From Streptosporangium brasiliense (GTDB taxonomy: Bacteria; Actinomycetota; Actinomycetes; Streptosporangiales; Streptosporangiaceae): a stretch of 64,000 nucleotides of DNA. Location of the stretch: contig NZ_JAUSRB010000002.1 in assembly GCF_030811595.1 (NCBI RefSeq), positions 7,812,001 to 7,876,000 of the forward strand. The letters run 5' to 3'. The position numbers and the translations under genes were made by a program. This document shows, in pieces, positions 34,567 through 38,688 of this stretch (positions are counted from its first letter, which is position 1; the number at the start of each line of letters is the position of its first letter). The notes beneath the pieces are model-generated. The model was not told where the DNA came from and made no database searches. It was given only the letters and a program-made list of their open reading frames with translations.

Positions 34567-35328
34567 ATGGAACACAGCGGCAAGGGGGATCCTGCACGCA
34601 GCCTGGCGCTGCTCTGGCGGACCAGCGAGCGGAGCAGCCGCAAGGGCAAGCCCGACCTGAGCGTGGACCGGATCGTGCGGGCCGGGATCGAGATCGCCGA
34701 CGGCGAGGGGCTGGCCGCGCTGTCGATGCGGCGCGTCGCCGAGCGGCTCGGGGTCGGCACCATGTCCCTCTACACCTACGTGCCGGGCAAGGCCGAGCTG
34801 CTCGACGTCATGCTCGACACCGTGTACGGCGAGACGGCCCGCCCCCAGGACGTCGTCGGGGGCTGGCGGGCCAGGCTCACGCTCGTCGCCCGGGAGAACT
34901 GGGAGCTGTGCCGCCGCCACCCGTGGATGCTGCAGGTCGACATCGGGCGTCCGCCGCTGGGCCCCAACCTCATGGCGAAATACGACTACGAGCTGGGCGC
35001 GATCGCCGGCACCGGCCTGACCGAGATCGAGATGGACTCCGTGCTCAGCCTGGTCCTGGGCCACGTGCACAGCACCGTGCGCGGCGCGGTGTCGGCCGCG
35101 CGGGTCGAGCAGGACACCGGCGTCACCGACGAGCAGTGGTGGCAGGCCCACCGGCCGGTCTTCGAGAAGATCTTCAACCCGGCCAGCTACCCGACGGCGG
35201 TCAGGGTCGGCGGGGCGGTGGGCCAGATCTACCAGGCCGCCTACGTCCCGTCCGAGCAGCTCTTCGAGTTCGGCCTGGAGCGGGTGCTCGACGGCGTCGA
35301 GATGCTCATCGCCAGGCGTCGCGGCTGA
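34567..35328 (+). CDS. TetR-family regulator
   Basis: A 253-residue regulator with an N-terminal extension, the HTH LAALSMRRVAERLGVGTMSLYTYV and PGKAELLDVMLD, and a C-terminal TetR_C_1-type domain (RRHPWMLQVDIGRPPLGPN, VLGHVHSTVRGAV). Relatives often repress drug exporters. Its 3' end overlaps the convergent GNAT gene by 23 bases. The only close divergent gene is the MOSC gene, and no clear operator was found. Confidence 0.88.
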   Translation: MEHSGKGDPARSLALLWRTSERSSRKGKPDLSVDRIVRAGIEIADGEGLAALSMRRVAERLGVGTMSLYTYVPGKAELLDVMLDTVYGETARPQDVVGGWRARLTLVARENWELCRRHPWMLQVDIGRPPLGPNLMAKYDYELGAIAGTGLTEIEMDSVLSLVLGHVHSTVRGAVSAARVEQDTGVTDEQWWQAHRPVFEKIFNPASYPTAVRVGGAVGQIYQAAYVPSEQLFEFGLERVLDGVEMLIARRRG

Positions 35329-35842
35329 TCCGGTAGAGCACGTGCGGCCGGAGCGGGCTGCCGGCCGCGACCCGGGGGTGGTCGAAGTCGTCGGCCGGGT
35401 CCCGGGTCATGCCGAGGCGCTCCATCACCGCCCGGGAGCGCAGGTTGACCACGGCCGTCATGGAGACGATCTCCTCCTGCCCCGCCGGGCCGAAGCCGTG
35501 GTCGAGCGCCGCCCGGGCCGCCTCGCCGGCGTAGCCGCGCCCCCAGGCGGAGCGGGCGAGCCGCCAGCCGACCTCCAGCGCCGGGGTGAAGGGCGCCTCG
35601 AACCTCTGCCACGCCAGCCCGGTGAACCCGATGAACTCCCCCGTGGCACGCACCTCCAGCGCCCAGAGCCCGTAGCCGTGCTCGTCGAACGCCGACTCGA
35701 TCCGCTCCACCATCGCGTCGGACCGCTCACGGCTCAGCGGCTCGGGGAAGTGCTCCATCACCTCGGGATCGGCGTTCATCGCCGCGAACGGCTCCCGATC
35801 GGCCTCGCGCCACCTGCGCATGATCAGACGTTCGGTCTCCAC
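35306..35842 (-). CDS. RimJ-like GNAT acetyltransferase
   Basis: A 178-residue protein opening VETERLIMRRWREADREPF, with DPEVMEHFPEPLSRERSDAM, FIGFTGLAW, and the acetyl-CoA loop WGRGYAGEAARAAL, as in RimJ/RimL-type N-acetyltransferases. Target unknown. GTG 35842 has GGAGAGG upstream. It overlaps the convergent TetR gene by 23 bases at their 3' ends. Confidence 0.88.
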   Translation of the reverse strand: METERLIMRRWREADREPFAAMNADPEVMEHFPEPLSRERSDAMVERIESAFDEHGYGLWALEVRATGEFIGFTGLAWQRFEAPFTPALEVGWRLARSAWGRGYAGEAARAALDHGFGPAGQEEIVSMTAVVNLRSRAVMERLGMTRDPADDFDHPRVAAGSPLRPHVLYRISRDAWR

Positions 35843-36039
35843 CGCACCTCTCCTCGGGTCCTCGGGTCGTCGGCCCCCGCGGCGGCCGCGTGGGGACCGC
35901 GCCACGGGAGCATACGGAAACGGGCGGCCGGCCGCGCCGGAGGGCCGTGACCTGCGGGGCGGCCGAACCGCCCGGCCACATCCGACACGCCGGGGCCCAG
36001 GGGTGGAATAACTACCGGCGGACGTCAGTTAGAGTAATC

Positions 36040-36198
36040 GTGCCGATGTGGTTTGTGTCCCCCGGGCCGCAAATTACCGCCTTCACGGAATACCGTTCGG
36101 CTGGAGCCGTGTTGTGCCTCTCGCCGAGGAGGCGACCGCCACATCGGCACTAGACGTCCGCCCCACGGGTGCTCCGGCACCCGTGGGGCGTTCTGTTT
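36040..36198 (+). ncRNA. candidate structured small RNA with intrinsic terminator
   Basis: GTGCCGATGTGG (36040-36051) is perfectly complementary to CCACATCGGCAC (36139-36150) and closes a 111-base element. Inside are at least two more helices: CACGG...CCGTG (36083-36110 region) and GCCTC...GAGGC near 36117-36134. A terminator follows at 36161. A -10-like TAGAGT (36030-36035) lies 4 bases before the 5' end. There is no open frame with a ribosome site. The layout does not match 6S RNA, SRP RNA, tmRNA, 6C or a riboswitch I recognise. It could be an independent small RNA or the leader of the plsC gene. Confidence 0.6.
36161..36198 (+). terminator. strong intrinsic terminator of the small RNA
   Basis: CCCCACGGGTGC pairs perfectly with GCACCCGTGGGG around a TCCG tetraloop (36161-36188), followed by CGTTCTGTTT. 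A 12-bp stem with a U-rich tail is rare in this GC-rich genome. Confidence 0.8.
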
Positions 36199-36335
36199 CT
36201 CCGGCTCCGCCCAGAAAAGGGGCGCGACTTTGGAGGAGGGCTACAAAGCTGGGGGCTCCGCTTGTGCGGCTGCGCACACCTGCCGCCCGTCGAGCCACCA
36301 CCTAGTGTGGTGAACCCGTCTCATGAGGAGAGCCC

Positions 36336-36986
36336 GTGCTCTATCGCCTGACCAAGATCGTCAGCACTCCTTTCCTGCAACTGCTGTGGCCCACCGAGGT
36401 CACCGGGGCAGAGCACGTGCCCTCTTCGGGCCCGGCCATCCTGGCCTCCAACCACCTGTCGGTCCTCGACTCGACCTTCCTGCCTCTGGTGCTGCCGCGC
36501 CAGGTCCGCTTCGTCGCCAAGGCCGAATACTTCACCGGCAACCCCGTCACCGCGGCGTGGATGCGGGCCACCGGCCAGCTCAGCATCGACCGGCAGAGCC
36601 CCACCGCGGCCCAGGACATGCTGGACACGGCCGCGCGGGTGCTCAAGGACGGCGAGCTGTTCGGGATCTACCCGGAGGGCACCCGCTCCCCCGACGGCCG
36701 CCTCTACCGGGGAAAGGTCGGGGTCTCCTGGCTGGCCCTGGCCACCGGGGCGCCGGTGATACCGGTGGCGATGACCGGCACCGACAAGGTGCTCCCGATC
36801 GGCGCCTCGGTGCCCAAGCTGGGCCGGGTCGGGGTGCGGATCGGCAAGCCGATGACGTTCACCGGCTCGGAGACCAGCGCGCGCGACCGGCGCCGGGTCA
36901 CCGACGAGATCATGGCGGCGATCCGGGACCTGTCCGGGCAGGAGTACGTACCGAGCTACACCCCCGCCCGCGGCCAGGCCAAATGA
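36336..36986 (+). CDS. plsC: 1-acyl-sn-glycerol-3-phosphate acyltransferase (PlsC family)
   Basis: A 216-residue membrane-associated acyltransferase that makes phosphatidate. The catalytic HX4D is H40-x4-D45 (SNHLSVLDSTF), the second motif FVAKAEYFTG, and the substrate-binding EGTRSPDG is at about residue 108. GTG 36336 has AGGAGAG 4 bases upstream. The promoter is probably the TAGTGT at about 36303-36308. It lies downstream of the small RNA terminator and 70 bases before the penicillin-binding protein gene. Paralogues acting on other lysolipids cannot be excluded. Confidence 0.9.
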   Translation: MLYRLTKIVSTPFLQLLWPTEVTGAEHVPSSGPAILASNHLSVLDSTFLPLVLPRQVRFVAKAEYFTGNPVTAAWMRATGQLSIDRQSPTAAQDMLDTAARVLKDGELFGIYPEGTRSPDGRLYRGKVGVSWLALATGAPVIPVAMTGTDKVLPIGASVPKLGRVGVRIGKPMTFTGSETSARDRRRVTDEIMAAIRDLSGQEYVPSYTPARGQAK

Positions 36987-37056
36987 TCATTTTCCGGAGT
37001 GCGCAGCGGGGGCCGCGCTAGGCTGCGCCCTTGGACTAGAGACTGGGGGTAGTCAG

Positions 37057-38688
37057 GTGCCACGTGGTAGGACGATCGCGATCACATCGGTGACGGCCGT
37101 ACTGGTGGCGGGGGCCGCCGGGGGCGGGGCCTGGTGGTTCCTGCACACCCGGGGGACCCCCCTGGAGACCGCCCAGCGTTTCACCCAGGCGTGGCAGCGC
37201 GCCGACCTGGCCGCCATGCGCGCCGAGCTCGGCGTGGCCGACCCCGCCTTCGGCCGGCCGTACGAGGACATGCGCAAGAGCCTGGCGGTCGAGGCCACCA
37301 CGGTGCGGCTCGACTCGGTGCGCGAGACCGGCGACGACACCGGCCAGGCCGCCTACACCGCCACGCTGAAGCTGAAGAACATCGGCGAGTGGAGTTACTC
37401 CGGCGTCCTCGACCTGGCCGTCGTCGACCGCAACTGGCGGGTCAAGTGGTCTCCGAAGGCCGTCCACCCCGACCTGACCGACGGCGGCACGTTCGCGCTG
37501 AAGACCAAATGGCCCGCGCGGGCGGGGATCGTCGCCGCCGGCGGCGAGCGCATCGACGGCGGCGACGCGGGCGGCTCGGTGCAGCAGCTCGTCGGCTACC
37601 TCGACAAGGCCACCGCCAAGGACGTCAAGGCGCTCGGCTCCTCCTACAAGGTGGGTGACGCGATCGGCCGGGGCGGGTTGCAGGAGACCTTCCAGCAGCG
37701 CCTGGCGGGCAGCCCCACCACCGAGATCCAGCTCGTCGGCGCCGACAAGAAGACCGTCAAGTCCCTGGGCAAGATCGAGGGAGAGAGCGGCGAGGCCGTG
37801 GAGACCAGCCTGGACCTGCGGGTCCAGCGGGCCGCCGCCGACGCGGTGCGCGACCTGAAGCAGACCGCCTCCCTGGTCGCGATCAAGCCGTCCTCCGGCG
37901 AGATCCTCGCCGTAGTGAACAACCAGGGTGGTTTCAACCGCGCCCTGGACGGCGCCTACCCTCCCGGCTCGACCTTCAAGGCCATCACCGCCGTCGGCCT
38001 GCTGGCCGAGGGGATGACCCCCGGCGAGCGGACCACCTGCCCCAAGGACGTCAACGTCGGCGGCCTGCCGATCCGCAACTCCCATCACGCCGGATACGGC
38101 TCGGTGACCTTCTCCGACTCCTTCGCCTACTCCTGCAACACCACCTTCGCCCCGCTGGCCCGGCAGCGGCTGAGCGCCGACAAGCTGCTGAGCACCGCGG
38201 AGCTGTTCGGCTTCAACAAGCCGCTCGGCATCGGCGTCCCGGCGGCCAAGGGCAGCATCCCCAAGGCCCGCAACGACGCCGAGCTCGCCGCGCAGTCCTT
38301 CGGCCAGGACCGGATCACCGCCAGCCCGCTGCTGATGGCCTCGGTCGCCGCCGCGCTGGCCGACGGCACCTGGCGCCCGCCGACGCTGGTCCCCTCCATG
38401 GAGCAGAAGGCCGAGCCGCAGGAGCTCCCGGAGGGCGTCACGTCCCCGATGCACCAGATGATGTCCGCGGTGGTCACCAAGGGCACCGCCAAGGACGCGG
38501 GCCTGCCGTCCGGCACCCGCGGCAAGACCGGCACCGCCGAGTACGGCGCGCAGGACGCGCTGAAGACCCACGCCTGGTTCATGGGCTTCCGGGGCGACCT
38601 GGCCTTCGCGGTCATCGTGGAGGAGGGCTCGGGCGGTGGCGCGGTCGCCGCCCCGGTGGCCGCGGACTTCCTGCGCGCTCTGGGCTGA
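37057..38688 (+). CDS. class B penicillin-binding protein (transpeptidase)
   Basis: A 543-residue protein. An N-terminal helix (IAITSVTAVLVAGAAGGGAW) anchors it. Residues 30-140 form a MecA_N/NTF2-like domain (ETAQRFTQAWQRADLAAMRAEL), and then comes a transpeptidase domain with SxxK as S-T-F-K at about 306-309 (YPPGSTFKAI), SxN as SCN in SYSCNTTF, and KTGTAEYG at about 490. It cross-links peptidoglycan and is a beta-lactam target. The N-terminal domain resembles that of beta-lactam-insensitive PBP2a-type proteins, which is suggestive but not proof of resistance. A GTG start is used. Confidence 0.9.
   Translation: MPRGRTIAITSVTAVLVAGAAGGGAWWFLHTRGTPLETAQRFTQAWQRADLAAMRAELGVADPAFGRPYEDMRKSLAVEATTVRLDSVRETGDDTGQAAYTATLKLKNIGEWSYSGVLDLAVVDRNWRVKWSPKAVHPDLTDGGTFALKTKWPARAGIVAAGGERIDGGDAGGSVQQLVGYLDKATAKDVKALGSSYKVGDAIGRGGLQETFQQRLAGSPTTEIQLVGADKKTVKSLGKIEGESGEAVETSLDLRVQRAAADAVRDLKQTASLVAIKPSSGEILAVVNNQGGFNRALDGAYPPGSTFKAITAVGLLAEGMTPGERTTCPKDVNVGGLPIRNSHHAGYGSVTFSDSFAYSCNTTFAPLARQRLSADKLLSTAELFGFNKPLGIGVPAAKGSIPKARNDAELAAQSFGQDRITASPLLMASVAAALADGTWRPPTLVPSMEQKAEPQELPEGVTSPMHQMMSAVVTKGTAKDAGLPSGTRGKTGTAEYGAQDALKTHAWFMGFRGDLAFAVIVEEGSGGGAVAAPVAADFLRALG

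Follow-up and report, generated by a model that had tools for sequence, protein, structure and literature searches.

The window, a stretch of 64,000 nucleotides from the genome of Streptosporangium brasiliense, carries a structured element of 111 nt that is flanked on one side by a divergent GNAT gene, whose longest ORF spans 35306-35905, and on the other by plsC and a MecA_N-type penicillin-binding protein gene. The gap before plsC described by the first-pass annotation exists, its length being a function of the start codon chosen for the GNAT gene. The plsC-type acyltransferase gene and the MecA_N/transpeptidase penicillin-binding protein gene that follows it occupy 36336-38688, and this neighbourhood is kept near the RNA in other genera. 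The features of the locus are the following.

36005..36009, + strand: GGAAT, -35 element of a sigma-R/SigH-type promoter, assigned from the 18-nt spacing in 17/17 copies and the published consensus
36028..36030, + strand: GTT, -10 element of the same sigma-R/SigH-type promoter, from a motif scan
36030..36035, + strand: TAGAGT, sigma-A-like -10 box of the first-pass annotation, overlapping GTT
36040..36150, + strand: structured RNA of 111 nt, from folding energy, homology and covariance searches, and covariation
36040..36051, + strand: 5' side of the closing stem P1, GTGCCGATGTGG, with 12/12 pairs changed on both sides among relatives
36055..36068, + strand: strand GUGUCCCCCGGGCC, conserved and C-rich, left unpaired by the tested structure, from alignments
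36064-36067 with 36079-36082, + strand: competing GGGC-GCC(U/C) pairing, columns 31-34 with 51-54 of alignment A4
36079..36088, + strand: 5' side of P2 (GCC and UUCACGG), two U positions being mismatched in the window, from covariation
36093..36104, + strand: P3 hairpin, short in the window and longer in some relatives, from alignment and covariation
36107..36117, + strand: 3' side of P2 (CCGUGUU and GUGC, one bulged base), from covariation
36122..36134, + strand: P4 hairpin, CGCC-GAGGA-GGCG, with a GNRA or GNR(N)A loop in 101/112 distinct sequences
36139..36150, + strand: 3' side of the closing stem P1, CCACATCGGCAC, from covariation
36159..36190, + strand: intrinsic terminator hairpin with a 14-bp stem, from a pattern scan, its T-rich tail running to about 36200

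The two sides of P1 are perfect complements over 12 bp and close the element, as had been noted at first reading. Folding of 36030-36210 yields an energy of -94.7 kcal/mol, compared with -69.9 (sd 4.4) in dinucleotide shuffles (z = -5.6), and none of 200 such shuffles folded as well. The terminator with a U-rich tail that had been described earlier is present, its stem measuring 14 bp instead of the 12 bp then given: the arms (36159-36172 and 36177-36190) enclose a loop of 4 and are followed by the T-rich tail, and the pattern scan returned two overlapping sites at this one hairpin, where 0.2 were expected from shuffles of the 601-base region. Among relatives, a perfect stem of at least 9 bp is found within 90 nt downstream at 45 of 89 loci, compared with 22 of 267 random places, so that this long-stem form of terminator is present in only about half of the loci. 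At the gathering score, Rfam 15 returned no match across the 64-kb window or in six other loci of the RNA family, and a permissive search of 35900-36350 returned five matches, all far under the cut-off with E of 1.3 or more. A known RNA class was rejected on both scans, in agreement with the opinion of the first-pass annotation that no such class fits; a strong match to a known family, which it had named as grounds for refutation, was not returned by Rfam 15.

Homologues were sought by blastn, which matched 38 of 60 genomes (S. brasiliense included), and by covariance models. The first model, R1, built from 21 sequences, identified two copies in the S. brasiliense genome, namely that of the window and C2:6526801-6526908, and matches in 61 of 296 genomes of the class, the weakest of which, in groups such as f30, had E of 1e-6 to 6e-4. 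The second, R2, matched 147 of 150 genomes of the host GTDB family (again including S. brasiliense) with 1-4 matches each, and the three negative genomes are 74, 90 and 77% complete. Across an even sample of the phylum, searched with strict filters, R2 matched only 10 of 396 genomes (S. brasiliense among them) from three families, and at least one genome (G129) of a genus-level group that otherwise carries the RNA (g41) had no match; at least with the strict filters of this sample, the RNA is not phylum-wide. A text pattern of the core found 10 of 51 loci in its first version and 49 of 51 once relaxed, the two that it missed (L044 and L046) being shortened by contig ends. Among the matches listed (80 of 118), the named carrier contigs are from Streptomyces, Saccharothrix, Lentzea, Actinomadura and Planosporangium. 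A clear copy (L196:38-145) also lies on a contig that bears the label of a Bacillota metagenome-assembled genome and is perhaps a mis-binned actinomycete contig.

The RNA also occurs in a plasmid collection, in which 60 records match one Streptomyces-type query, 44 match another and 22 match the window query; these are mostly from Streptomyces, with Rhodococcus and Prescottella in addition, and a few of the records are chromosome-sized (Nonomuraea gerenzanensis, 11.9 Mb; Embleya, 5.7 Mb). Of 16 plasmid-collection stretches (L271-L286), 14 were annotated, with DUF6233 in three and a DNA ligase or Ku gene in four, and these neighbours are taken as a shared plasmid backbone. No match to one Streptomyces-type query was found in 50,697 phage records, and a phage origin was rejected on that single query. 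Arrays of two or three copies were found in four Lentzea, two Planosporangium and three other genomes. At these loci (L178, L179, L152, L206, L156, L161, L093, L112 and L113) the copies share a strand, and about 170-870 nt separate their starts. The promoter motif described below precedes 14 of the 21 array copies, the seven without it all being from Lentzea. Two partial model matches, L109:9286-9374 and L286:172-266 (positions 11-98 and 9-100 of 108), have no promoter motif and look like decaying paralogues.

Comparison of the relatives revealed covariation in the proposed helices. Over 112 distinct sequences, 93.3% of 3162 base-pair cells are paired, compared with 75.8% in shuffles, and 545 cells are changed on both sides, compared with 156; such changes are seen in 20 of 29 pairs. 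The observed value of each of five covariation measures was reached by none of 500 shuffles, and sliding the partners by 1-3 columns reduced the paired cells to 35-48%. The first set of 88 distinct rows gave a similar result, with 91.2% paired (78.4% in shuffles) and 310 both-side changes (88 in shuffles). These alignments were fitted to models that hold most of the tested pairs, which favours the structure. The compensatory changes in the stems, whose absence the first-pass annotation had regarded as refutation, are strong, and the aligned members support P2, P4, the base of P3 and also P1, all 12 pairs of which show both-side changes. The outer P2 pairs of the element, U49-U50/U79-U80, are absent from R1; in the R1-fitted alignment A3 they show both-side changes in 12 and 9 rows and are unpaired in 63 and 66 of 88 rows, that of the window included, and the P2 positions at columns 54 and 55 lack a pairing partner in 49 and 59 of the 112 rows. 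Given that the pairs of P4 are nearly invariant, with two of the four never varying in the 112 rows, this hairpin rests more on its loop, which over the 112 distinct sequences is of the GNRA form 85 times and of the GNR(N)A form 16 times, the GAGGA of the window being of the latter type. The RNA ranges from 83 to 147 nt (alignment A4), and P3 varies in length. In L123-L128 the RNA is only 84 nt and the P2-P3 arm is replaced by a plain short hairpin.

The strand UCCCCGGG between P1 and P2 is nearly constant in the alignments. RNAalifold paired the GGGC of the C-rich strand with GCC(U/C), in competition with the outer part of P2. Both pairings vary too little for discrimination, and a conformational switch between the GGGC-GCC pairing and P2 is possible on the predicted structures. 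Streptomyces-type copies, such as L097:6001-6109, carry GGGACAGUGUCCC at the P1 junction, a sequence able to fold into a small hairpin that would hide the C-rich strand; inspection by eye revealed no hairpin of this kind in the other groups. A small protein was also considered as the product. Some stop-free frame exists in 109 of 115 rows, and the rejection of this candidate comes not from stops but from the base pairs and from indels, the RNA length modulo 3 being even (36, 40 and 39 of 115).

A scan of 35800-36400 for sigma-70-type promoters returned none, and a sigma-R-type reading was therefore taken up. A passage of PMC9205884 gives the SigR consensus as GGAAT-N18-19-GTT, and GGAAT-N18-GTT is present at 36005-36030, with a predicted transcript start. 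The -10-like box that had been placed at the 5' end of the element, TAGAGT, does exist, and it overlaps the GTT of this promoter. The motif is present with a spacing of exactly 18 nt in 17/17 copies of the window type, namely that of the window and those of 16 close relatives, of which 15 belong to the same genus and one to another. Within the first set, GGAA[TC]-N18-19-GTT lies 3-16 nt before P1 at 65 of 89 loci, for which the background rate of the flanks predicts 0.0005 motifs per locus, and the spacing controls N15-16 and N20-22 gave 0/89 and 1/89 loci respectively. In the larger set the motif is just upstream at 88 of 115 loci and its exact form is missing at 27; group f15 has it at 0/4 loci and group f30 at 2/5, with 3/5 missing. 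In a few copies at the plsC locus (L086 and L087), only TAGAGT is kept and GGAAY-N18-19-GTT is missing. On the plasmid-collection stretches the motif precedes 13 of 15 copies found by the text pattern and 12 of 16 found by the model, the two sets differing slightly. The Streptomyces and Rhodococcus plasmid copies (L271-L286) mostly keep the chromosomal-type stress promoter. The second S. brasiliense copy, C2:6526801-6526908, has a GGAAC-N18-GTT promoter of its own. Two proteins of the S. brasiliense genome score over the curated cut-off of SigH_actino (TIGR02947). In Corynebacterium glutamicum, SigH promoters are placed at 44 start sites of candidate sRNAs in a passage of PMC4046766.

The position of the RNA and its terminator upstream of plsC raises the possibility that the element controls the downstream gene, in the window plsC, in cis as a terminator riboswitch or an attenuator. 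At the orthologous locus, plsC and the MecA_N-type penicillin-binding protein gene remain close to the RNA in part of the GTDB family, which is consistent with this. However, such a role is highly improbable because the neighbours vary and there is no clear orientation preference: of 66 cases (rough ORF calls, with orthologous loci counted separately), the first ORF downstream shares the strand of the RNA in 36 and lies on the other in 30. L139 and loci like it have plsC, a pyridine-nucleotide-disulphide oxidoreductase gene, the RNA and the penicillin-binding protein gene in this order, which places plsC upstream of the RNA; loci of this type and of the window type are taken as one ancestral locus. 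The second copy in S. brasiliense (L083:6001-6108) lies downstream of a LysR regulator gene, and an ORF of 125 aa separates it from a nearby alpha/beta-hydrolase gene, which is on the other strand. The neighbours of Streptomyces copies include PHP-domain, HAD-hydrolase, FUSC-type, SDR and epimerase genes, the copies L097, L154, L155, L184 and L222 being placed between the gene of a FUSC-type membrane protein and SDR/epimerase genes. The association with plsC and the penicillin-binding protein gene is limited to one of the copies and to part of the GTDB family, and a dedicated neighbour gene was rejected as the chromosomal and plasmid contexts differ. In summary, the varied neighbours, the 36 to 30 division of orientations and the stress-type promoter that most copies have of their own speak against the first-pass proposal of a premature-termination riboswitch for plsC. 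Its other proposal, a new small RNA gene, is upheld by the lack of an Rfam match, the compensatory changes and the near-universal presence in the GTDB family.

The family, its fold, its promoter motif and its varied neighbourhood are established by computation. Taken together, the promoter, the fold, the terminator and the varied context point to a stand-alone, thiol-stress-driven RNA that acts in trans, and this sigma-R-driven structured RNA is considered the probable product of the locus. It is suggested that a noncoding RNA gene would be transcribed by a thiol-oxidative-stress sigma factor of the sigma-R/SigH type and the transcript ended by the terminator of the gene itself. The product would be a three-way junction of P1, which is of free sequence, the P2-P3 arm and a short P4 arm with a GNRA-fold loop, in which the conserved strand would sit between P1 and P2. 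Such an RNA would then act in trans during disulfide stress. Constant loops and a constant junction among freely varying helices suggest the binding of a conserved partner: the loops and the C-rich strand may be presented to a conserved cellular partner, which would be a protein or complex rather than a single mRNA, much as with 6S or Ms1 RNA. This partner-binding step, drawn from the pattern of conservation, is tentative and falls just short of an even chance.

The conserved C-rich strand, lying outside the supported helices, also gives rise to the main rival, antisense action, whereby a stress-induced sRNA would pair through this strand with the G-rich translation starts of several mRNAs and the copies would be sibling sRNAs. 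This is a rival on the mechanism and not on the identity of the gene, and its probability overlaps with that of the preferred explanation. The occurrence of several copies per genome and of short arrays would fit it, as would the precedent of the CcsR/cuckoo sRNAs of Rhodobacter, which are multi-copy, driven by a stress sigma factor and carry a C-rich motif. The present family shares these three traits with the CcsR/cuckoo sRNAs; it differs in belonging to unrelated bacteria and in its three-way-junction core with a GNRA-fold arm. Nevertheless, this mechanism is rather doubtful for two reasons: first, a wider core that includes the GNRA-fold hairpin is kept across distant families, beyond what seed pairing needs. 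Second, complementarity to the 16S and 23S rRNA of S. brasiliense is within the range of shuffled RNAs: a match of CCCGGGCC(U) to 16S exists, and the matches of five family members to both rRNAs, sense and antisense, were no longer than the longest from 40 shuffles. Pairing with or mimicry of rRNA was rejected on the same result.

Given its long closing stem and its wide occurrence in actinomycetes, the RNA could belong to the polymerase-binding RNAs of the Ms1/6S group. A HAD hydrolase and an oxidoreductase are named as Ms1 neighbours in a passage of PMC9130861; at Streptomyces L154 there is a gene for a HAD-type hydrolase some 1.4 kb upstream of the RNA and a FUSC-type gene in the interval, and the RNA of L184 is followed by an NAD-dependent epimerase gene. 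6S and Ms1 RNAs have the shape of a long hairpin with a central bubble. The supported fold, however, is a three-way junction, no Rfam 6S match was obtained and no HAD family was found among five window ORFs scanned. A passage of PMC8539372 gives the Streptomyces scr3559 as 192 nt long and the 6C RNA gene scr3558 as a near neighbour of it; a search of six loci of the present family returned no 6C match. Membership of this group is accordingly improbable. The present RNA resembles scr3559 in being a stand-alone structured RNA with stem-closed ends that is widespread in the class, but at about 110 nt it is shorter, has a different fold, occurs in several copies, also on plasmids, and carries a sigma-R-type promoter. 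The 6C RNA is likewise an actinomycete RNA with a conserved C-run; there the C-run lies in two hairpin loops, whereas in the present RNA, which has no Rfam match, it lies in the junction strand next to GGG. A Ro-associated Y RNA was rejected, as a search of the S. brasiliense genome for the TROVE domain (PF05731) gave no match (the control was positive in 1 of 14 genomes). The closing stem of Y RNAs holds a conserved Ro-binding sequence, and here all 12 pairs of the closing stem are changed on both sides.

The RNA resembles members of the sigma-R/SigH regulon in having GGAA[TC]-N18-19-GTT directly upstream, and no literature passage found on the regulon names this RNA or its fold. Non-exhaustive literature searches of titles and abstract openings returned no description of it, and some Streptomyces copies may already stand under scr, sar or svr numbers in published RNA-seq lists. 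It is classed as a new family within the stress-regulated bacterial small RNAs, SigH-promoted sRNA candidates as such being already known. A more speculative proposal, judged unlikely as a whole, is that of a core actinomycete stress RNA with a new tertiary fold, which the thiol-stress sigma factor would induce in several orders and which is near-universal in at least one family and present in extra plasmid copies. Such an RNA would bind a conserved part of the transcription or translation machinery and reshape it under disulfide stress, much as 6S RNA acts in stationary phase. Actinomycetes include the main antibiotic producers, and their thiol-stress response is known chiefly through protein genes. 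The fold, promoter and range of an RNA with one to several copies per genome, also on plasmids, are now defined, and, if the proposed role is true, a conserved RNA output with the response's own promoters would add an RNA layer to the thiol-stress response.
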